Origin: Paracoccaceae bacterium
GTDB lineage: Bacteria; Pseudomonadota; Alphaproteobacteria; Rhodobacterales; Rhodobacteraceae
DNA length: 36,089 nucleotides
Assembly (NCBI GenBank): GCA_007692585.1
Contig: REBU01000045.1
Span: 1 to 36,089, forward strand
Direction of reading: 5' to 3'
Shown: piece by piece, positions 7,386-35,904 of the stretch
Layout: every line of letters starts with the position of its first letter
Numbering within the stretch: position 1 is the stretch's first letter
Notes under the pieces: model-generated
Database searches by the model: none
What the model was told of the DNA's origin: nothing
Seen by the model: only the letters and a program-made list of their open reading frames with translations
Made by a program: the position numbers and the translations under genes

Positions 7386-7534
7386 CTGCAACACCTTGTT
7401 GCGACCCGGTCAGGGGCCGTGATCAGAAGTCTTGTCATACGGATGCAAACGCACCGCAGACGGCGAAAGATGCCACCGCTACGGTAAAACCGTTACCCGC
7501 AGCGCCACCCGCGCCGGGATAGGGTGATCACTTT

Positions 7535-7699
7535 GGCAGGTCTCCTGACTCGCGGGTCTCAGCTCTGTCGGGCCTTCCCATGACTTGCGTCACAGTGGCA
7601 TATGCCGACATCGCTCGCCGCCTACAGTTGCGGGGGCAGTCACGGAATTGCGCCCTATCTGGCCGCGCACCGCGTTCCCTATTACCGAAGGCAAGTGCC
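7535..7699 (-). promoter_or_regulatory. Cobalamin riboswitch in the btuB leader
   Basis: On the minus strand the conserved blocks of the adenosylcobalamin aptamer occur in order. They are a 5' GGCA, AATAGGGAA, TGCCCCCGCAACTGTAGG, the B12 box TATGCCACTGTG, CATGGGAAGGC, and the 3' block CGAGTCAGGAGACCTGCC. The 5' GGCA can pair with the 3' TGCC to close P1. About 150 bases separate it from the btuB start. In that leader, 7477-7504 can form a hairpin (ACGGT/ACCGT core with CGCT/AGCG outside) that may belong to the expression platform. Binding of cobalamin normally switches such operons off. Confidence 0.96.
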
Positions 7700-7705
7700 T
7701 TCGAA

Positions 7706-7939
7706 CCAAAGTAACGATGGGTTAACACTCGAATAGAGATTCGACAAGCATCGACACGGGCCCCGGACACAGCTTTCGCATGCTGGACGCGGGTGAGGAC
7801 ACTGGTCTGGGCTGTGGTGCGGCACTCGTCAATTCTCTGGACCTCTCGCGCTGAGCAGAATACCACACTTATCGCGAGCAACAGGGTCGACCAAAACACC
7901 AGAACGCGAAACACGCATTGATCAGGACGACAGTTTGTC
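7706..7939. other. Intergenic region between the B12 riboswitch and the nucleotidyltransferase gene
   Basis: About 230 bases that should hold the promoter of the B12 operon (minus strand) and that of the divergent nucleotidyltransferase gene (plus strand). I see no convincing protein-coding gene and no lasso-type leader peptide here. No clear -35/-10 pair stands out. Confidence 0.5.
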
Positions 7940-9190
7940 ATGGGCGAGACCGACCGCACCATCGCTGCTGGCCCCAGGCTGTCGCCTGCAGAGGAACGGC
8001 TGCTCCTTTTGTTGTCGCGCCCGGCCCTGACCCCGGAGCAAACCGCAACCGCCTTTGAATTGTGCGCGCAGGTGACACAATGGCCGTTGCTGATCACGAC
8101 GAGCTACAGGAAATTCGTTCTGCCTATGGTCTTGGGCAACCTGTCCGGGCTGCCGCCCGACGCCATGCAGGAGAATCTGCGCAAGTCGATGCGGACCATG
8201 TCGCGGACCATCACCTCCATGACGCTGCAAAGGCTGGCGGCTTTTGACTGGTTTCATGCGCATTGCGTTCTGCCAGCCGGCGTCGAGTATGCTTATTTCA
8301 AGGGCCCTGCCCTTGCATCGCATCTCTATCCCGATCCGTGCGCCCGCTTTTTTCGCGATGTCGATATTCTGGTGGCCGCGCAAGATCGTCTTAACCTGTT
8401 GCGGCGTGCACGCGATCTGGGTTGCAAACTCTATGGACATGCCTGGGCCGATGCAACGGAACTGAGCCTTGTCGATGACACTGCGCTGGAGGATTTCCTG
8501 TTCATCAATTCGGTGCCGCATATCATGACGCCGCAAGGGCTGCTGGTCGAGATGCACACCGAGATCGATTATCACACATCGCTTTTCGACACGCGTGCGC
8601 TCCTGCGGGGCAGCATGGATGTGACCATTCGCGGGCAGCCGGTCAGGATGCTGTCTGATACCGAACATTTCGTCTTCATCTGCTATCACCACACGCGGCA
8701 TATGTGGAGCAAGTTGCACTGGATCGCCGATCTCGATGCGTTCTGCAATGCGCCTGGTTTCGACCGCACGGCTGCTCTGGCGCTCGGTCGCAGGCTCAGG
8801 ATCGAAACCACGATCAGTGCCGCGCTGGAGTTGCATGATCTGGCGTCGCAGGGCAGACATCCGTCAGAATTTGACCGCCTTACGCCCGGCGCTGATCTGC
8901 TGCAGGCTTGTCTTGAAACGCTGGGCGGCGATCTGGAGCTGGAAACCGCGCTGCGCAGGCGGCGCAAACAGCGCGCGTTTGCGCTGGGTTTTGACTGGCA
9001 ACCGACACCAGTATCGCACTGGCATCGGGTGTGGCTTCGGCTGCGCAAGATCAAGGTCAGCTATGCGGTTTTTCGCCGTATCCCGGGCGGGCGCAACTGG
9101 CGTCACCTGCGCTACGGTTGCGCACTCGGGATACGCGTGATGACCGACGGCCCCCGCGCCCTGCGCGCAGCGCTCGGGCGGCGCGCGTGA
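7940..9190 (+). CDS. Nucleotidyltransferase family protein (PF14907 type)
   Basis: A 416-residue protein of the uncharacterised nucleotidyltransferase group (PF14907). The diagnostic region is around residues 118-146: Y-F-K-G-P-A-L-A, then a Tyr/Pro loop and R-F-F-R-D-V-D-I-L-V, giving the K-G and D-x-D elements of the polymerase-beta-like active site. A second block, VEMHTEIDYHTSLF, and the HHTRHMWSKLHWIADL block are also typical. Family members are found with HPr-kinase-like proteins, PqqD-like proteins and lasso-type enzymes, and some may modify peptides. Here it stands alone, divergent from btuB and 3 bases from the convergent queF, so a link to the RiPP genes 15-27 kb away is inference. 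The substrate is unknown. Confidence 0.85.
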   Translation: MGETDRTIAAGPRLSPAEERLLLLLSRPALTPEQTATAFELCAQVTQWPLLITTSYRKFVLPMVLGNLSGLPPDAMQENLRKSMRTMSRTITSMTLQRLAAFDWFHAHCVLPAGVEYAYFKGPALASHLYPDPCARFFRDVDILVAAQDRLNLLRRARDLGCKLYGHAWADATELSLVDDTALEDFLFINSVPHIMTPQGLLVEMHTEIDYHTSLFDTRALLRGSMDVTIRGQPVRMLSDTEHFVFICYHHTRHMWSKLHWIADLDAFCNAPGFDRTAALALGRRLRIETTISAALELHDLASQGRHPSEFDRLTPGADLLQACLETLGGDLELETALRRRRKQRAFALGFDWQPTPVSHWHRVWLRLRKIKVSYAVFRRIPGGRNWRHLRYGCALGIRVMTDGPRALRAALGRRA

Positions 9191-20197: not shown

Positions 20198-20448
20198 GAC
20201 AGGCCCTTTCGCTTTAATCTTCGTCGCGCATGGGTAGCTTGCCGCGACCGCCGATGCAACCGATTGCCCCTGCCTAAAAGGCTTTCAGCGCGTTCAATCA
20301 ACCGCGGTGCCTTGAAACGGTGCCAAGCGCGGCAAATCGCCGCCGGGGCATCTTTTCCAGCGCACGCTGACTTTACGCAATCTTGGTGGCGCGGCCGCAT
20401 CTTGGGGCGCGAAATCCTTCTCTGCCCTCACACCGGAGATCTGTGCCC
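20198..20448. other. Divergent intergenic region galU / DUF2793 gene
   Basis: About 250 bases between two divergent genes. It presumably contains both promoters. I see no RNA gene or short gene in it. The plus-strand gene has CGGAGA upstream of its ATG. Confidence 0.5.
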
Positions 20449-22110
20449 ATGTCCGACCAAACTGCCCGATTGGGGCTTCCCTTCATTCAGCCCGCGCAGG
20501 CGCAAAAACATGTCACGCATAACGAGGCATTGGCGCAGCTGGACCTTCTGGTACAACTCAGCGTGCAGGAGTTTGATGCGACCACGCCACCAGCACTGGC
20601 ACAGGAGGGACACATCTGGGCCCTGGGCGCGGCGCCGTCAGGGGCCTGGGCGGGACAGGCCGGCCAGCTTGCGGGTTGGGTGAATGGCGGCTGGCTGTTC
20701 ATCGCACCACGCCTAGGCTGGAGCGCGACACAGATGACCGCGACCGGGGCCGAATTGCGGGTCTTCACGCCATCGGGCTGGACCGCCCCCCTGCCCAGCG
20801 CGCTCGACAATCTATCCGGGCTGGGGATCAATGCCAGCCATGATGCGACCAACCGGCTGAGCGTGGCCTCTGCAGCGACGTTGCTGAGCCATGAGGGGGC
20901 GGGGCATCAGATCAAGATCAACAAGTCTGGCACCACAGACACCGCCAGCCTGCTCTATCAGACCAACTGGTCGGGACGGGCCGAGATGGGCACGACAGGC
21001 AATGACGATTTCAGCATCAAGGTCAGTCCCGATGGCGCGACATGGCTGGATGCGCTGAGCGCCAGCCATGCAAGCGGGCTGGTCAATCTGCCCAACGGGC
21101 TGAGCGTGACCGGGACGCTCACACTGCCCGCAAACAGCGTTGCGCGCGCGGCTCTGGCCCATGGCGCGGCGCGGAGCGTCATCGGGCGCGGGTCCAGCTC
21201 TGCCGGGGCTGTGGCCGATATTGCAGCGGGCAGCGACCATCAGGTCTTGCGCCGCGCGGGCTCCTCGATCAGCTTCGGCGCGCTGTCCATCGGTCAGACT
21301 GCGGCGGTGACGGGGCAGTTGCGCGTCGTCAATGGTGGCACCGGGGCTTCGACCGCAGAAGACGCACGCAGCAATCTGGGGTTGGGCAATGCCGCAGAAG
21401 CGACCCTGAGCACCAACGCGGCCGATGCAACCGAAGGGCGCGTGCCGGTCTTGCGCGCGGCCGGGGGGATTTTCGGGCTGGGCGGCACGGCGGGCGTGGC
21501 CTATCCATTGGCCGATCTGAACGCCGATCCGACTAGCGTGCCCGCAGGCACCTATCTTCTGGGCGCGGGGCTGGCCAATAACCCGGTCGGCGCTGGCAGC
21601 GTGCAGGTCACGCATCTGGGCGCGGGCGTCGTGTTTCTGGAAGCCCGACGCGATCTGGACGGCACGCGGTTGTGGTTTCGCGCTTGGCGCGCAGGGGCAT
21701 GGGGTTTTGCCTGGGCGCGGGTCTGGCACAGCCGCAACACGACGGTCGATGCCAACGGGTTTATCCGCGAAGCCTCGCCCATCCTGCGGCTGTTCCATGA
21801 TCACACCGAAGAACCTGTCGAGCCTGTCGGCGCCGTTTTCAAACGCGTCGGGAAGGGCCGCTACAGCCTGAGCAATGTCGCCCCGCTGGCGCGCAAAGGC
21901 TGGCAGATCGAAGTGCCGCAGGACGAAAACGGCACAAGGCTGGTCCATATCGCGACGCGATATGACCCGCGCGCGCACCGTCTAACCGTGACCACGACCG
22001 CCCCGGACTGGTCCGAGGCACAGATGCGCTGGGTTGCCGGAGCGCCGCGCGACATCCCGGCAGGTCGCTGGGTCGACCTGCGCTTCAGCGCGCCAGAGCA
22101 GGACGGATAG
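20449..22110 (+). CDS. DUF2793 domain protein, phage/GTA spike- or tail-like
   Basis: A 553-residue protein with a DUF2793 domain at its N-terminus (about residues 1-90): R-L-G-L-P-F-I-Q-P-A-Q-A-Q-K-H-V-T-H-N-E-A-L is the hallmark opening. The middle is rich in short Gly/Ala/Ser/Asn repeats such as L-R-V-V-N-G-G-T-G-A-S-T-A, typical of phage tail-fibre shafts. The C-terminal third, with alternating Trp-rich strands, may be a receptor- or sugar-binding domain. DUF2793 occurs in prophage tails and, to my knowledge, in the head spikes of Rhodobacter gene transfer agents, which can be encoded away from the main cluster. No other phage genes are near. A hairpin terminator follows. Confidence 0.8.
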   Translation: MSDQTARLGLPFIQPAQAQKHVTHNEALAQLDLLVQLSVQEFDATTPPALAQEGHIWALGAAPSGAWAGQAGQLAGWVNGGWLFIAPRLGWSATQMTATGAELRVFTPSGWTAPLPSALDNLSGLGINASHDATNRLSVASAATLLSHEGAGHQIKINKSGTTDTASLLYQTNWSGRAEMGTTGNDDFSIKVSPDGATWLDALSASHASGLVNLPNGLSVTGTLTLPANSVARAALAHGAARSVIGRGSSSAGAVADIAAGSDHQVLRRAGSSISFGALSIGQTAAVTGQLRVVNGGTGASTAEDARSNLGLGNAAEATLSTNAADATEGRVPVLRAAGGIFGLGGTAGVAYPLADLNADPTSVPAGTYLLGAGLANNPVGAGSVQVTHLGAGVVFLEARRDLDGTRLWFRAWRAGAWGFAWARVWHSRNTTVDANGFIREASPILRLFHDHTEEPVEPVGAVFKRVGKGRYSLSNVAPLARKGWQIEVPQDENGTRLVHIATRYDPRAHRLTVTTTAPDWSEAQMRWVAGAPRDIPAGRWVDLRFSAPEQDG

Positions 22111-22382: not shown

Positions 22383-23372
22383 TCAGCGCGGCGGCGCGTT
22401 GCCGTGCAGGCGCAAATGCCAGCGCCAGGCGTCGCGGATCATGTCATCAAGCGTCGCCTGCGCCTCCCAGCCCAGCTCAGTCCGCGCGCGGGTACTGCCC
22501 GAAACCAGCCGTGTCGCGTCGCCCGCCCGACGCGGCCCGAAGCGTGCGGGCACCGGCACGCCGGTGACGGCCTCCGCACGCGCGAGCACTTCGCCAACGC
22601 TGTAACCTTGTCCTGTCCCGAGGTTGAACACCCGACTTTCCCGACCGGCCTGCAACCAGTCCAGCCCCAGCAGATGCGCGCGGGCGAGATCCATCACATG
22701 GACGTAATCGCGGATGCATGTCCCGTCAGGCGTGTCATAATCTGTGCCATGGATCTGCATTTCCGGACGCAATCCGGCCACAGCCTGCAGCACCACAGGG
22801 ACGAGATGGGTTTCGGGGTCATGCGCCTCGCCGATCTCGGCTTCCGGATCGGCCCCGGCCACGTTGAAATAGCGAAACACCACAGAGCGCAATCCGTGGC
22901 TGGCGGCAAAATCGCGCAGCATATCCTCAATGGCACGCTTTGAGGCCCCATAGGCGTTGAGCGGCGCCTGAGCGCTCTGCTCATCCAGCGTCACCCCATC
23001 CTGCTCGCCATAGATCGCGCAGGTCGAAGAAAACACCAGCTGTTTGCAGCCTGCCCCCAGCATCGCCTCGATCAGGGTCAAGGCGCCCAACACATTGTTA
23101 CGCCAATACTTCCCCGGCTCGGCCATGGCTTCGCCGACCTGGCTGAAGGCCGCGAAATGCAGAACGGCTTCAGGTTTGTGACGCGCGAACGCGTCTGAAA
23201 GTGCGCCTGCATCCGTCAGATCAAGTTGCTCGAATGGCCCAAAGCGCACAGCCGCGGCGCGTCCGGTCGACAAATTGTCCAGCGTGACAGGAATATGCCC
23301 TGCTTGCGCCAGAAGTTTGCACATATGCGCGCCAATATAGCCCGCACCGCCGGTCACAAAAATAACGCTCAT
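22383..23372 (-). CDS. galE: UDP-glucose 4-epimerase
   Basis: A 329-residue extended SDR enzyme interconverting UDP-glucose and UDP-galactose. The NAD-binding motif is TGGAGYIGAH at residues 7-16. The catalytic Ser/Thr region is S-S-T-C-A-I-Y-G, with the Y-G-A-S-K-R (Y-x3-K) motif further on. YFNVAGADPEAEIGE and RDYVHVMDLARAH are standard GalE blocks. AGGGC lies upstream of the ATG. It lies downstream of the small peptide gene on the same strand, with 188 bases between. Confidence 0.95.
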   Translation of the reverse strand: MSVIFVTGGAGYIGAHMCKLLAQAGHIPVTLDNLSTGRAAAVRFGPFEQLDLTDAGALSDAFARHKPEAVLHFAAFSQVGEAMAEPGKYWRNNVLGALTLIEAMLGAGCKQLVFSSTCAIYGEQDGVTLDEQSAQAPLNAYGASKRAIEDMLRDFAASHGLRSVVFRYFNVAGADPEAEIGEAHDPETHLVPVVLQAVAGLRPEMQIHGTDYDTPDGTCIRDYVHVMDLARAHLLGLDWLQAGRESRVFNLGTGQGYSVGEVLARAEAVTGVPVPARFGPRRAGDATRLVSGSTRARTELGWEAQATLDDMIRDAWRWHLRLHGNAPPR

Positions 23373-23431
23373 CGTGTTGCCCTGCTCGACTCGGACCGAC
23401 GCACTAACAGGTTCCGTGTGGCGATACCAGT

Positions 23432-23452
23432 GGTGAGGGATGTAACCTCACC
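23432..23452. repeat. Perfect 7-bp inverted repeat upstream of galE
   Basis: GGTGAGG (23432-23438) and CCTCACC (23446-23452) with a 7-base loop. It sits 60-80 bases before the galE start and has no T-tract on either strand, so an operator or RNA hairpin is more likely than a strong terminator. Confidence 0.5.
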
Positions 23453-23526
23453 CCCATCATGCCTCATTACGGACACGCGCAAAGAGGAAACATGTGGCGA
23501 TGACCATGGTCAGCACGGCATGGAAA

Positions 23527-23541
23527 GCCGCGCAAGGCGGC
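23527..23541 (-). terminator. Weak hairpin after the RiPP precursor gene
   Basis: GCCGC at 23527-23531 and GCGGC at 23537-23541 form a 5-bp stem, followed on the minus strand by TTTCC. It begins about 20 bases past the precursor stop. The T-run is short, so termination would be weak. Confidence 0.35.
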
Positions 23542-23560
23542 GCACCTCGACTGTCAGAAG

Positions 23561-23713
23561 TCAGGAACAGGACCCGGTGAGGCCAGTTTTATCGCAAGAT
23601 GTTGGCGTCGTTATAAAGTCTTCACCCATAGCCGGAGTAACGCCGCTCAGGGTTTTCGTCACATCGAGGGTTTTGATTTTAGGCGCAATCCAGATTTTCT
23701 GTTTCTTGGTCAT
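23561..23713 (-). CDS. Candidate lasso-type RiPP precursor peptide
   Basis: A 50-residue peptide read codon by codon from the ATG at 23713, with AAGGTG eight bases upstream, to TGA at 23561. Residues 1-22 form a Lys-rich leader with W8-x2-P11-x-I13-x2-L16-D17-V18-x2-T21. This matches the lasso leader rule (aromatic-x2-P-x-L/I, then Thr two residues before the core) and the LDV-x2-T form of paeninodin-type leaders. The predicted core is S23-S50, beginning S-G-V-T-P-A-M-G-E-D-F. With core start S23 the ring acceptor is E31 (position 9); with G24 it is E31 or D32 (8 or 9). The tail holds C40 and C49 and ends in Ser. A PqqD-like gene lies 126 bases upstream in the same direction. Function is inferred; another RiPP class remains possible. 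Confidence 0.75.
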   Translation of the reverse strand: MTKKQKIWIAPKIKTLDVTKTLSGVTPAMGEDFITTPTSCDKTGLTGSCS

Positions 23714-23742
23714 TTCATATTCACCTTTTCTACCCCAGGATG

Positions 23743-23771
23743 ATCGTAACAGGCTTTACTCAACCGCGCAA
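23743..23771 (-). promoter_or_regulatory. Possible promoter of the precursor gene
   Basis: On the minus strand TTGCGC (23771-23766) and TACGAT (23748-23743) are separated by 17 bases, 30 bases before the precursor ATG. Each hexamer matches the sigma-70 consensus at four of six positions. A private promoter would let the peptide be made in excess over its PqqD-like partner. Confidence 0.4.
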
Positions 23772-23839
23772 CAATACGGTTTTAATGAAAAATCACTTGA
23801 ACCTGGCTCTCAAGCTCGCCTTTTGCACCATGTAACTGT

Positions 23840-24094
23840 TCAGGCCCGCTCCACGAGCCCTGCCTCCAGCAATTCATCAACAAAACGATGCGTTTCCGCG
23901 CGGCAAGTGTCGGCATCCACGTCATAGCGGGCCATCAGGGCGCTGCAGATATCGTCCATACTGCGCGGGGTTTCGATCAGCTCCCAGATATCGGCCCCGA
24001 CAGTGCCAGTCGCAAAATATTTGCCCGCTTTCTCATCAAACAATACAAGATCATCCTTGACCCTGCTGGCATAAGCACTTTTCCTTGCAATCAT
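23840..24094 (-). CDS. PqqD-family RiPP recognition protein (lasso B1-like)
   Basis: An 84-residue PqqD (PF05402) protein, the winged-helix RRE that binds leader peptides and hands them to modifying enzymes. Visible is the core D-D-L-V-L-F-D-E-K-A-G-K-Y-F-A-T-G, then G-A-D-I-W-E-L-I-E-T-P-R-S, and a helical end F-V-D-E-L-L-E-A-G-L-V. I chose the ATG at 24094 because GAGGGG lies six bases upstream; ATGs at 24115 and 24127 are in frame but lack such a site. It precedes the precursor gene and is divergent from the ABC exporter. It could act as lasso B1, or as the PqqD partner of an HPr-rel-A system. Confidence 0.88.
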   Translation of the reverse strand: MIARKSAYASRVKDDLVLFDEKAGKYFATGTVGADIWELIETPRSMDDICSALMARYDVDADTCRAETHRFVDELLEAGLVERA

Positions 24095-24140
24095 GTCATT
24101 CCCCTCAAGTGCCATCATCAAACTCATTTGCTATTGTCTG

Positions 24141-24152
24141 GTAAACATTTAC
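24141..24152. promoter_or_regulatory. Small palindrome between pqqD-like gene and exporter
   Basis: GTAAACATTTAC: 5-bp arms GTAAA/TTTAC around CA. It lies in the 263-base divergent region, about 50 bases before the PqqD-like start, where a regulator could bind. Shortness makes chance occurrence possible. Confidence 0.3.
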
Positions 24153-24357
24153 GCGCAAAGCGAAGATCCGATCAATACGATTCGCGCCCATAACGCCGCA
24201 CAGATACCCTCGTTAACTATGATTTAGGGCCGATGGCATACCCTTGCACCGCTCCCGAGCGTTGAAGCCGCGAACTGCCCTTGTTGTAGGCGCGCAAACC
24301 AGACAGATTACACAGCACAGACGGCCTGCCCGTCGCAACATTCTGGACACACCGACG

Positions 24358-26199
24358 ATGAGCCTGCGCAAGCGCCTCCAATCCCGACTGACCCTTTGGA
24401 AGAAACTCTTCAAGCTGCTGAGCTTCTGCAGCCGCAACCTCAGCCTCTCGGTCGCCGCCCTGTCGGTCCTCGAGGCTATGGCAGGCATTGCAGTGCTCTT
24501 TCTGATCAAACAACTCGTCGACGGGATCTCGATGCAGCTGGGCGATACGGGTGGGCTGAGCAATACCGGATCGATCTTTCAGGCCCTTGGCCTGATCGGG
24601 TTGATGATGGTGCTGACCGTCGCGTTTCAGCGCATGGCGGAATATGCGCGCCACCGACAAGGCACGGAGGTCGCGGATCATGTCGATCGCATGATCCATG
24701 AACGTGCGATCGCCGTCGATCTCGCTTTCTATGAAAGCCCTCAATATTACGATTCACTCCAGCGCGCGCGCGCGGCGGGCAGCCAGCGTCCGGCACAGGT
24801 GGTGACAACTCTCGCGAATTTCTTCCGCAGCATCATCTATCTGATCGGGATACTCGCGCTGATGGCCTCGCTGGATTGGCGGCTGGTTGTGCTCTTGCTG
24901 CTGAGCATGGGCACGGCGCTGGTGGTCCGGCTGCATTTCACAAAGCTGCTCTTTGCATGGCAGCATCGGCGCGCGCAGATGGAACGCAGGGCGAGCTATC
25001 TGGACTGGCTGCTGACCTCGGATCATCACGCCAAGGAGCTGCGCATCAGCCGCCTCGGCGGCGAGCTGCGTGACCGCTACAGCAATTTGCGGCGCCAGAT
25101 CCGTACCGAACAGCTGGCCATCGAGAAACGCAAGATGCTGGCCGAGGTGGCCGCGGCAGGGGCTGCGGCGCTTATATTCTTCGGCGCAACCGCGTGGCTT
25201 GTGATGCGGGTGATTGATGGCAGCGTGGGTCTGGGCGATCTGGTGCTCTTCCTGCTGCTGTTCCGCCGTGCGGAAACCAGTGGGCGCGAATTCGTCAATT
25301 CACTCTCGGCGCTTTATGATCACCAGCTGTTCTTGACCCAGCTTTTCAGCTTTCTTGAGGTCAAGGCGCAGCTCGCCCCCCCTGCCGCACCTCGCGCCCT
25401 GCCTTCGCCCGTGCGCGAAGGGCTCCGTTTCCACAATGTCTCTTTCCGTTACCCCAGCAATGAGGCCTCTGCCCTGTCCGATGTCGATTTCGAGCTGCCC
25501 GCCGGGCAGGTCACAGCGATTGTCGGCGAAAACGGGTCGGGCAAGACTTCGCTGATAAAGCTGCTTTGCCGACTCTATGATCCGGGTCAGGGCCGGATAA
25601 CCCTCGACGGGATCGACATTCGCGAATTCGACCCGGTGAGCTATCGCAAGCTTTTCAGCGTGATCTTTCAGGACTATGCCTGCTATGCTGAAACGGTCAG
25701 TGAAAATATCCGTTTCGGCAATATCGAAGCTGCGCCCGATGATCCCCGGATCCGTCATGCTGCGGATTTGGGCGGGGCCACCGAATTCATCGCCGATCTT
25801 CCTCAGGGATTTCAGACCCCCCTGACACGATTGTTCGATGATGGGCGCGAGCTGAGCCTCGGCCAGTGGCAGCGCGTCGCGCTGTCGCGTGCGTTCTTTC
25901 CGCAATCGCCCTTCATCATCATGGATGAGCCCACCAGCGCCGTGGACCCGCGCGCCGAAGCCGAATTGTTCGAGAATTTCCGCGCCCGGCTTGAAGGGCG
26001 CGGTGCGCTGATCATCTCGCACCGGCTGTCGACCATCCGCATGGCGGATCGAATCTACATGCTGGAAAAGGGTCGGGTTCTGGAAAGCGGAACCCATGAC
26101 GAGCTGATGGAGAAGAATGGCAATTACGCCAATCTGTTCTCGCGCCAGGCACGGTCCTTCCTGTCGCCCGCCCCTGCAATGAAAATGCCCCCCGTCTGA
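24358..26199 (+). CDS. ABC exporter, fused membrane and ATPase domains (lasso D-like)
   Basis: A 613-residue type-B half-transporter. The membrane domain covers about residues 20-310 with five to six hydrophobic segments. The ATPase follows with Walker A GENGSGKTS near residue 389, a Q-loop in VIFQDYACYAETV, the signature L-S-L-G-Q-W-Q-R (L for the first G of LSGGQ) near residue 498, Walker B FIIMDEPTSAVD and switch His in ISHRLSTI. There is no C39 peptidase domain, so leader removal must be done elsewhere, as in lasso systems where B2 does it. Divergence from the PqqD-like and precursor genes supports peptide export; polysaccharide-linked export is the alternative. I used the ATG at 24358; ribosome-site evidence is weak. 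Confidence 0.88.
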   Translation: MSLRKRLQSRLTLWKKLFKLLSFCSRNLSLSVAALSVLEAMAGIAVLFLIKQLVDGISMQLGDTGGLSNTGSIFQALGLIGLMMVLTVAFQRMAEYARHRQGTEVADHVDRMIHERAIAVDLAFYESPQYYDSLQRARAAGSQRPAQVVTTLANFFRSIIYLIGILALMASLDWRLVVLLLLSMGTALVVRLHFTKLLFAWQHRRAQMERRASYLDWLLTSDHHAKELRISRLGGELRDRYSNLRRQIRTEQLAIEKRKMLAEVAAAGAAALIFFGATAWLVMRVIDGSVGLGDLVLFLLLFRRAETSGREFVNSLSALYDHQLFLTQLFSFLEVKAQLAPPAAPRALPSPVREGLRFHNVSFRYPSNEASALSDVDFELPAGQVTAIVGENGSGKTSLIKLLCRLYDPGQGRITLDGIDIREFDPVSYRKLFSVIFQDYACYAETVSENIRFGNIEAAPDDPRIRHAADLGGATEFIADLPQGFQTPLTRLFDDGRELSLGQWQRVALSRAFFPQSPFIIMDEPTSAVDPRAEAELFENFRARLEGRGALIISHRLSTIRMADRIYMLEKGRVLESGTHDELMEKNGNYANLFSRQARSFLSPAPAMKMPPV

Positions 26200-33940: not shown

Positions 33941-34475
33941 GGCTCCCGCGCGCTACCAAGGTGTATCTTCGTTGAATAACTTAACGCACTTGAAAGACGA
34001 AAACAGGCCCATCTGCACTCTGCAAGCGATTCCATGCTTATGCGACCGGTAAGCTACTGATCGCGGGTCATTCCACTCTTTCCGATAGCACGCCGCAGCC
34101 CTGGGTCGATATGTGCTCTGGACTGGCATGTCATCACAAGGCTCCAGCCCCCGGCCGCACGCGCGTCCGGCACCGTAGAACGAAAATTGATCCTTGCATC
34201 AGTCACAATCGCCCCCCCCTCGCTCTGCACGGCTAGCTGCGCAGCGGGTGCGCTTCCGTGCAAAGATAGGCGTTCTCTGTGGCACTCGCAACACCTGCGT
34301 CAGGTCGACTTCAGCGCGCGCGTCGCGACATTACCAATGATGCGCAAAACATCGCCAGGTTCACTAGCGCCGCATTAAGGGCACCTCAGTACAAGTTTGA
34401 CCCTTTGCGCTGAACCTGTCCCTTGCGCAAACCTTCGCCACGGTATAGCCGAGAGCGCAGGAGCATCACAGCTTG
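33941..34475. other. 535-base gene-free region before the B2-like gene
   Basis: The region separates the phosphatase (minus) from the B2-like gene (plus) and should hold both promoters. It contains a run of eight C (about 34209-34216) and several short frames on both strands. A 69-codon minus-strand frame with a TTG start (34054-34263) has a protein-like composition but no recognised family. I found no second lasso-type leader here. Confidence 0.4.
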
Positions 34476-34973
34476 ATGACCCGACCTGCAAAGATGAGAC
34501 GCCTCGTGATCCGCCGCATCCGAAATTTCCTTGGCCTCGCAAGATCGCGCAAACGCCTGCTGGCAGAGGTCACGATCGAGCTTCTGCGCGCGTCATGGAC
34601 CGTGCGGCGTCGTCCTTTCCAAACCTATGTGACGAGTTTCGGCAACCCCAAGCCGGGTGATTTCGTGGATGACAGTCTCGAGAACCTGCCAGTTGGCCAA
34701 TTGCGCGATCTGCATTGGGCGCTGACGCGTGTCAACCGCGTTGCGCGGGGACGCTTCACTTGTCTGATGCTGGCCATGGCCGGAAAACGTGTGCTTAATC
34801 GACGTGGGGTTCCCAACAGCCTTGTTCTCGCCGCGCGGCCTGACCGAGGCGCGGATAACGACCCGTTTGGCGCGCATTCCTGGCTGCGTTCGGGACAGTA
34901 TGTCGTCATCGGTGCCGAAGAAAGCGTCGGGCATATTCCGCTGGTCAGCTATCACTCGACACCGCTGGACTAA
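34476..34973 (+). CDS. Lasso peptide biosynthesis B2-like transglutaminase-fold protease
   Basis: A 165-residue protein matching the lasso B2 / Transglut_core3 (PF13471) family, cysteine proteases that cut the leader from lasso precursors once B1 presents it. An Arg-rich helical N-terminus precedes the catalytic Cys96 in R-F-T-C-L-M-L-A-M-A. Next come N-R-R-G-V-P-N-S-L-V-L-A-A-R and His134 in D-P-F-G-A-H-S-W-L, the family's Cys-His layout. I used the ATG at 34476; a TTG three bases earlier is also possible, since GGAG lies nine bases before it. It is followed by the HprK-like gene. The pair is separated by 10 kb from the B1-like and precursor genes. Confidence 0.88.
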   Translation: MTRPAKMRRLVIRRIRNFLGLARSRKRLLAEVTIELLRASWTVRRRPFQTYVTSFGNPKPGDFVDDSLENLPVGQLRDLHWALTRVNRVARGRFTCLMLAMAGKRVLNRRGVPNSLVLAARPDRGADNDPFGAHSWLRSGQYVVIGAEESVGHIPLVSYHSTPLD

Positions 34974-35052: not shown

Positions 35053-35904
35053 TTGAAGTTATATCATCTTTACGGACTGGCCGTCGCCTCTGATTTCGAC
35101 TGCCCGGAGCTGAGCGAACTGACGCCCGAGCAAGTGTCCGCGCGCGGCTATGCAACGGTCGAGTTACGGCGCGCGACTGAACCGCTCACGCTTGAAGGCG
35201 GGCAAACGCTCACCCAGTGGCTTTGCGTAACGCCCGATGCCTGTCTGTGTGAGTTTACCGGGATCGCCCAGTTCCTGATCGAGCGCCCGGACCGGATTAC
35301 CGTGCGAATGATGCCCGGCGGCGTGGAAAGTGACATGCGGGCTTATTTGTTCGGCACCGGTTTCGGGGTTTTGATGCATATGCGCGGGCTGGTGCCGCTG
35401 CATATTTCTGCGATCAAGACACCGGATGGGGTCACCGCCTTCACGGGCGAGTCGGGTGCGGGAAAATCGACAAAGGTTGCCGAATTGCATTTCAAGCATG
35501 GCTGGCCGGTCATCTGTGACGATGTCGCTGTGCTGCATCCCGACGACACGCTGCCGATCCTGCATGCGGGCATGAACCGGATCAAGCTGTGGAATGACGC
35601 CGTGGAACGCTTTGGGGTGGACCCTGCCCGGCTGACGCGCGACATCATGCGCTTCGACAAATTCCACCTGAACGATCCAGACATGTTTGTGGAAGAACCT
35701 CAGATCCTCGAAACGCTGATTGAGATCGCCGATCACGGCAAACACCAGTCGCAACCGGTCGGCGCAGACGCATTCACCTTGCTGATGAATGCAGTCTACC
35801 GCCCTGAATTTGCAGCAATTTTCGCAGATCGCGGAAATATCTTCAAAACGATCAGCCGGTGCGCGGTGCATATCAACACCAAGTCGGGGAAAACCGACCC
35901 GTAA
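35053..35904 (+). CDS. HPr-kinase-like protein (HprK-related / lasso peptide kinase type)
   Basis: A 283-residue P-loop protein resembling the C-terminal kinase domain of HPr kinase/phosphorylase. Walker A is G-E-S-G-A-G-K-S-T at residues 132-140, preceded by H117 in V-P-L-H-I-S-A-I. The acidic pair D156-D157 follows in V-I-C-D-D-V-A-V, as in HprK. The N-terminal half is the alpha/beta part typical of HprK-related kinase A. I place the start at a TTG (35053) with GGAG six bases upstream; a GTG at 34993 lies in the hairpin region. Relatives phosphorylate the C-terminal Ser of paeninodin-type lasso precursors, and the candidate precursor here ends in Ser. The substrate is inferred. Confidence 0.85.
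   Translation: MKLYHLYGLAVASDFDCPELSELTPEQVSARGYATVELRRATEPLTLEGGQTLTQWLCVTPDACLCEFTGIAQFLIERPDRITVRMMPGGVESDMRAYLFGTGFGVLMHMRGLVPLHISAIKTPDGVTAFTGESGAGKSTKVAELHFKHGWPVICDDVAVLHPDDTLPILHAGMNRIKLWNDAVERFGVDPARLTRDIMRFDKFHLNDPDMFVEEPQILETLIEIADHGKHQSQPVGADAFTLLMNAVYRPEFAAIFADRGNIFKTISRCAVHINTKSGKTDP

Follow-up and report, generated by a model that had tools for sequence, protein, structure and literature searches.

A putative paeninodin-type lasso peptide precursor without a linked cyclase gene in a polysaccharide locus of a Paracoccaceae bacterium

The locus described here raises the question of whether a small gene, A1, encodes the precursor of a lasso peptide, and of how such a peptide would be made where no gene for the asparagine-synthetase-like lasso cyclase, LasC, lies beside it. 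The window, that is, the whole stretch of DNA analysed, comprises 36,089 nucleotides and constitutes an entire contig (C108) of a draft genome (G000; 3.26 Mb in 116 contigs, 98% complete by estimate). A1 almost certainly encodes the peptide from which a knotted lasso peptide would be made, in a host related to soda-lake bacteria. The best explanation overall, which is considered very probable, is that A1 encodes the precursor of a secreted lasso peptide, for which a LasC encoded outside the cluster would have to act in trans. The gene and its parts are as follows.

23561..23713, minus strand: lasso precursor gene A1, 50 amino acids (reading of the open reading frame, orthologs and dN/dS)
23722..23727, minus strand: ribosome-binding site AAGGTG, 8 nucleotides upstream of the A1 ATG
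23648..23713, minus strand: leader, residues 1-22, with W(-15), P(-12), I(-10), L-D-V and T(-2) (alignment of precursors)
23564..23647, minus strand: core, 28 residues, SGVTPAMGEDFITTPTSCDKTGLTGSCS (all 11 precursors compared have E9 and end in Ser)

An earlier note on this DNA had described a complete small gene with an ATG start, a TGA stop and an AAGGTG site, encoding W8, P11, I13, L16-D17-V18, T21 and S23-G-V-T-P-A-M-G-E-D, and all of these features were recovered at the same positions on re-reading (translation MTKKQKIWIAPKIKTLDVTKTLSGVTPAMGEDFITTPTSCDKTGLTGSCS). The lasso-type reading proposed there is supported and a paeninodin-type precursor fits the evidence: A1 carries the aromatic-x2-P-x-L/I leader motif and the Thr at -2 that characterise lasso precursors, and Glu at core position 9 provides the conserved acid expected at core positions 7-9. 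The leader type and the position-9 ring acid are those of paeninodin, core position 1 being Ala in paeninodin and Ser in A1. Small open reading frames homologous to A1 were found in five further genomes of the genus (G008, G009, G010, G023 and G025), and comparison with the closest ortholog, in G010, gives a dN/dS of 0.12 (0.07 for the leader part); for the core alone the synonymous sites are saturated (pS 0.79), so that its dN/dS is unusable. A1 is a real gene and not an artefact. No promoter-like site was found in 23300-24400.

The conservation of the leader and of the ring acid in relatives, one of the checks by which the reading could have been overturned, held when tested. In 10 aligned precursors W8, P11, L16, V18 and T21 are invariant. 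Glu at core position 9 and a terminal Ser are common to all 11 precursors compared, of which G000 contributes two and G010 four. All 11 also carry T(-2), S/T/G at position 1 and G2; the pattern that first found several of the precursors contained W/Y/F, P and T, and the pattern used to split leader from core contained T(-2), residue 1 (S/T/G) and G2, so that the constancy of T(-2), S/T/G1 and G2 is partly built in. E9 and the terminal Ser are absent from both patterns. Likewise, no frameshifts were present in the orthologs read, which belong to other species.

The earlier note had left the core start open between S23 and G24 and the ring acid between E31 and D32; S23 and E31 are favoured, and G24 and D32 are not. 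A core beginning at S23, with T21 at -2 and L22 at -1, is supported. Since Glu occupies core position 9 in 11 of 11 precursors and the position of D32 is held by Trp in the nearest A1 ortholog, E31 is likely the ring acid, which predicts a nine-residue ring, S23-E31, closed by an isopeptide bond between S1 and E9, with D32 outside that role. Two tail cysteines (Cys18 and Cys27; Cys25 in G008) are present in three of three A1 orthologs. Class IV lasso peptides are defined by one disulfide wholly in the tail (PMC9266682), and a predicted Cys18-Cys27 disulfide would place the A1 product in that class. The C-terminal Ser28 is a predicted phosphorylation site and probably the target of a kinase; its conservation fits the presence of the kinase K described below. 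According to the same source, the paeninodin precursor is phosphorylated by PadeK at its C-terminal Ser, a site retained across clusters that encode a kinase of this type. Overall, the leaders are conserved and the cores diverge.

The search against lasso precursor models that the note had suggested did not bear it out for the A1 peptide itself. No Pfam or NCBIfam model matches it (no match at E up to 1 in the NCBIfam scan), and it fails the paeninodin family model NF033524 (cut-off 27 bits), which its paralog in this genome passes (28.9 bits). An orphan precursor of G010 also passes (29.1 bits), and of the other seven precursors scanned five match below the cut-off and two do not match.

Four further genes of the window are assigned to the same system.

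23840..24127, minus strand: B1, stand-alone RRE of the PqqD family (PF05402), predicted to bind the leader
24358..26199, plus strand: D, ABC exporter (PF00005)
34473..34973, plus strand: B2, leader peptidase (NF033537), start codon uncertain, conserved from about 34506
35053..35904, plus strand: K, HPr-kinase-like precursor kinase (conserved kinase residues)

A1 is flanked by B1 and D, the group being set between GalE and polysaccharide export/polymerase genes, while B2 and K lie about 11 kb from A1, beyond polysaccharide genes, a Wzc-like gene and a phosphoesterase. The combination of an RRE with a transglutaminase-like peptidase was found in B1 and B2, B1 by the Pfam PqqD model (69.2 bits, cut-off 23.4) and not by the lasso-specific cut-off (NF033536 lasso_PqqD_Bac, 66 bits against 80). 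The B1 profile matches three solved sequences, the top two being a lasso PqqD (9x90) and TbiB1 (5v1u). A second PqqD of the genome, on contig C84, adjoins PqqC-like and radical-SAM PqqE-like frames, as named by eye, and was set aside. B2 scores 58.4 bits with NF033537 lasso_biosyn_B2 (cut-off 33) and also exceeds the Pfam cut-off; Cys97 and His135 are invariant in six sequences, and at the position which we take to hold the third catalytic Asp neither B2 nor five relatives have an Asp. A comparison of B2 with solved structures gave no match, and that of K gave seven weak matches (best E 0.26). In K, H117, G132, G135, G137, K138, S139, D156 and D157 are invariant in six sequences, with the K-to-D distance one residue longer than in BsfK, and the same H-G-G-G-K-S-D-D set is reported for lasso precursor kinases (PMC10368454). 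K and the C-terminal Ser of A1 together present the combination that marks kinase-type lasso clusters, for which phosphorylation is predicted. D has a 97% identical ortholog in locus L028, and its homologs adjoin LasC in L030 and lie one gene away from LasC in L029.

With these components the following route is proposed. B1 would bind the 22-residue leader through W8/P11/I13 and L-D-V, and K would phosphorylate Ser28, perhaps followed by a candidate nucleotidyltransferase, N, discussed below. B2 would cleave after L22, reading T21 at -2, and LasC would link the Ser1 amino group with the Glu9 side chain, so that a nine-residue ring surrounds the tail, in which Cys18 and Cys27 could form a disulfide. 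The finished lasso would be exported by D. Monoisotopic masses calculated for the A1 core are 2762.208 in linear form, 2744.198 as a lasso, 2742.182 with the disulfide added and 2822.149 with disulfide and one phosphate; those for the orphan precursor A2 described below are 2982.432 (linear) and 2964.421 (lasso). The genes, their motifs, their conservation and the selection upon them are observed; every chemical step in this route is inferred. LasC, being outside this cluster, would act in trans, as the layout in G010 implies.

The distribution of the family in relatives bears upon this last step. With an E limit of 0.1, the first six precursors used as queries matched eight of the 37 genomes in the genus, and six of these hold clear precursors (G000, G008, G009, G010, G023 and G025); the weak matches in G012 (E 0.055) and G014 (E 0.09) fall within frames of 305 and 532 codons, respectively, and were rejected, and pattern matches lacking the L-x-V-x2-T form were discarded by eye. 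Across the family, with an E limit of 0.001, precursors were identified in two of 394 genomes, namely the window's own and G348, of another genus, whose precursor has directly upstream a LasC-like frame 35-41% identical to the LasCs of this set. In the named collection B1 has relatives in 10 loci, three of them close: Natronohydrobacter sp. CSBr16_62 (93%), a Rhodobacteraceae MAG (74%) and an Alphaproteobacteria MAG (67%). Loci L028, L029 and L030 are apparently the same contigs as L070, L075 and L076 (alike in lengths and genes) and were counted once. Nearly complete sets are linked in two of them: L030 carries D (truncated where the contig stops), C (LasC), B1, A, K, B2 and N, and L029 carries D, N, C, B1, A and K (cut). 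More distant B2 genes with PqqD-like genes beside them were also seen in L012, L025 and L026 (G008) and in L013 (G023), which suggests several different lasso-type clusters in one genome of the genus.

Further precursors were read in G000 and in G010, the nearest relative found.

L002 213-365 (G000:C111) and L069 606-755 (G010:C219): orphan precursor A2, adjoining smpB- and uvrB-like frames
L068 3982-4155 and 4413-4565: precursors A3 and A4 of G010, next to LasC (reading of the sequence)

A2 lies between the smpB- and uvrB-like frames in G010 and adjoins them in G000 as well, there at the end of a contig (names by eye), and no lasso enzyme was seen near it in either genome. Its 22-residue leader is identical in the two (six synonymous and no non-synonymous differences), and its core has diverged (13.5 of each). 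A working RRE-guided system would be expected to leave just this trace, a leader held constant and a core free to vary, which argues against long-standing decay. In G010, contig C297 carries LasC, a second K, A3 and A4, while C62 carries A1 with the sole detected B2 and the sole strong B1, so that A, B1, B2 and C do not occur together at any one of the loci detected there; as this genome is 83% complete, the point about a single locus is provisional. The best reading is that the lasso genes are scattered through the genome and that the cyclase acts in trans, which is seen only as gene layout and in G010. A stronger form, put forward tentatively and judged somewhat doubtful, is that one B1/B2/C set serves three unlinked precursor loci (the A1 polysaccharide cluster, the orphan by smpB/uvrB and the two precursors by LasC), each locus needing another, and that A1 yields a lasso with a tail disulfide and a C-terminal phosphate. 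As a separate observation, the cysteines of A3 are Cys7, within the ring, and Cys32, within the tail, which is suggestive of a ring-tail disulfide.

The window's own cluster contains no LasC; those of relatives do. Eight of 37 genomes of the genus have a LasC at least 56% identical to the L030 protein, two of these sequences being truncated at contig ends. It adjoins D or B1 in G006, G023, G024 and G025, has B2 on one side and the phosphoesterase on the other in G008 and G009, and lies beside an apparent B2 start in G020. Both usual places are empty in the window and in G010.

33941..34472, no strand: intergenic stretch from the phosphoesterase gene to B2, the LasC site in G008 and G009, with no LasC remnant

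A search for remnants in the gaps of the window returned chance matches only (E 1.3 or worse). In the draft genome PF00733 has four matches, each covering at most 73 of 354 profile positions, the one in the window being QueC. The LasC proteins of L030 and G010 as queries found none in G000, the L030 query having found LasC in G010, and 8 kb of DNA around the G010 LasC matched only the kinase in G000. A position just beyond the contig end is unlikely by synteny with G010: the contig breaks off within a tRNA adjoining K, and the G010 copy of K is followed by tRNA-Val and a Lon-like frame (by eye). Known plasmids gave 214 matching records, all below 60% identity and none covering 80% of the query, with 11 of the best 15 of the 214 annotated as asparagine synthase. 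LasC of this genome is either unassembled or lost.

We lean towards the former, that is, LasC elsewhere in the genome within an assembly gap of the 116-contig draft. The estimated completeness of 98%, the location of the G010 LasC on a separate 11-kb contig and the presence of LasC in five of the six genomes with a clear precursor, G000 being the only one without, are consistent with a gap; however, no contig holds LasC or its G010 flanks, and the gene probably does not lie simply past the contig end.

A degenerating cluster that has lost LasC for good, its peptide being at most phosphorylated, cut and exported in linear form, or not made, is unlikely. Such loss would explain why LasC is missing from both usual places and from the assembly, but every other component is intact, and comparison with G010, whose locus likewise has no LasC, shows purifying selection on them; from the shared layout the loss there would precede the split of the two, yet E9 remains conserved and G010 has a LasC. 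Between the window and G010, dN/dS is 0.048 for B1, 0.070 for B2, 0.044 for K and for D and 0.12 for A1, within the range spanned by their neighbours in the locus (Wza 0.030, Wzc 0.047, GalE 0.086, phosphoesterase 0.141 and Wzy 0.152). LasC may nevertheless have disappeared recently from the lineage to which the window belongs.

A polysaccharide cluster is also the setting of the HPr-rel-A system, a non-lasso RiPP kind with a PqqD protein and an HprK-related kinase A. That A1 belongs to this kind is very improbable: B1 (33.9 bits with TIGR04353, cut-off 35) and K (27 bits with TIGR04352, cut-off 200) do match its models but both stay under the cut-offs, whereas B2 passes the lasso B2 model, a paralog passes the paeninodin model, E9 is constant and the clusters of relatives contain a LasC-like protein (best NCBIfam match NF033535, 223 bits, itself under the cut-off of 525).

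The chance that A1 is a fortuitous frame and the longer opposite-strand frame of 233 codons (23226-23927) the true gene is negligible, as that frame, which does exist, runs antisense across GalE and B1, and A1 recurs in G008 and G010 with the same neighbours at a dN/dS of 0.12. A strict leader-plus-ring pattern has one match in the window and none in 200 first-order Markov simulations of it, and, having been composed when A1 was already known, provides a sanity check only; a loose pattern occurs once against 316 times in the 200 simulations (about 1.6 each) and is by itself uninformative. Conservation is the real test of A1.

The precursor of a secreted lasso peptide, which remains the preferred reading of A1, is a further member of a known lasso type; what is unusual is the layout, with no linked cyclase, with orphan precursors and with the parts scattered across a polysaccharide locus. 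Lasso mining tools start from biosynthetic enzymes and their neighbours, and could miss clusters without a cyclase as well as orphan precursors without a nearby lasso gene. Should a single enzyme set supply precursors at unlinked loci, lasso repertoires would be larger than now counted, and the leader common to these precursors would be a routing signal. No description of unlinked lasso precursors or cyclases was found in the open-licence literature searched, and the main text of a genome-mining paper on the related Roseibaca, Roseinatronobacter and Rhodobaca contains no word beginning with 'lasso' (PMC10584327).

Paeninodin of Paenibacillus (PadeA, K, C, B1, B2 and D) resembles the present system in its split B1/B2, its kinase and a C-terminal Ser as substrate (PMC9266682, PMC5067487), and differs in that the A1 core is unrelated and has two tail Cys, LasC is missing from the cluster, and A/B1/D and B2/K are about 8 kb apart in a polysaccharide locus. 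SyanK of Sphingobium (SyanA/SyanK) is, like K, a proteobacterial lasso kinase. Pseudomycoidin combines a kinase with a nucleotidyltransferase (PsmK, PsmN), as may be the case here, but psmK and psmN lie in one cluster, while K and the candidate N are apart from the precursor. The class IV peptides LP2006, pandonodin and the felipeptins have two tail Cys, as A1 does; their clusters are described in that review without a kinase (PMC9266682), and the disulfide here is a prediction. The nearest parallel found to an unlinked cyclase is citrulassin, which needs a PAD encoded outside its cluster (PMC12971885). In that case the unlinked gene is for a tailoring enzyme, and in the present one it is the cyclase that defines the class, along with additional precursors.

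The candidate nucleotidyltransferase lies some distance from the precursor.

7940..9190, plus strand: N (candidate), NTP_transf_5 nucleotidyltransferase (PF14907, 112 bits)

N is 48% identical to its counterpart in L030, and its homologs adjoin B2 in L030 and G006 and D in L029. Homologs of at least 45% identity occur in six of 37 genomes of the genus (G000, G006, G008, G010, G023 and G025), each with lasso genes, and weak matches only (31-33%) in four more; none was found in that search in G009, G020 and G024, all of which bear LasC. In G008 the homolog is next to the more distant B2, and in G000 a second copy lies near sugar-nucleotide genes. With distribution and neighbourhoods so patchy, a role for N in the lasso system is a guess. 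The repeated placement of the genes in polysaccharide loci (the window, G008 and G010) hints, speculatively, at an envelope-related role.

Elsewhere in the window, a cobalamin riboswitch (7518-7725, minus strand) lies upstream of genes for a TonB receptor, a binding protein, a FecCD permease, an ABC ATPase and CbiZ, which probably form an operon for uptake and salvage of B12 or cobinamide. Between GalU and GalE, 20383-22110 (plus strand) encodes a protein with DUF2793 and a phage tail C-terminal domain.
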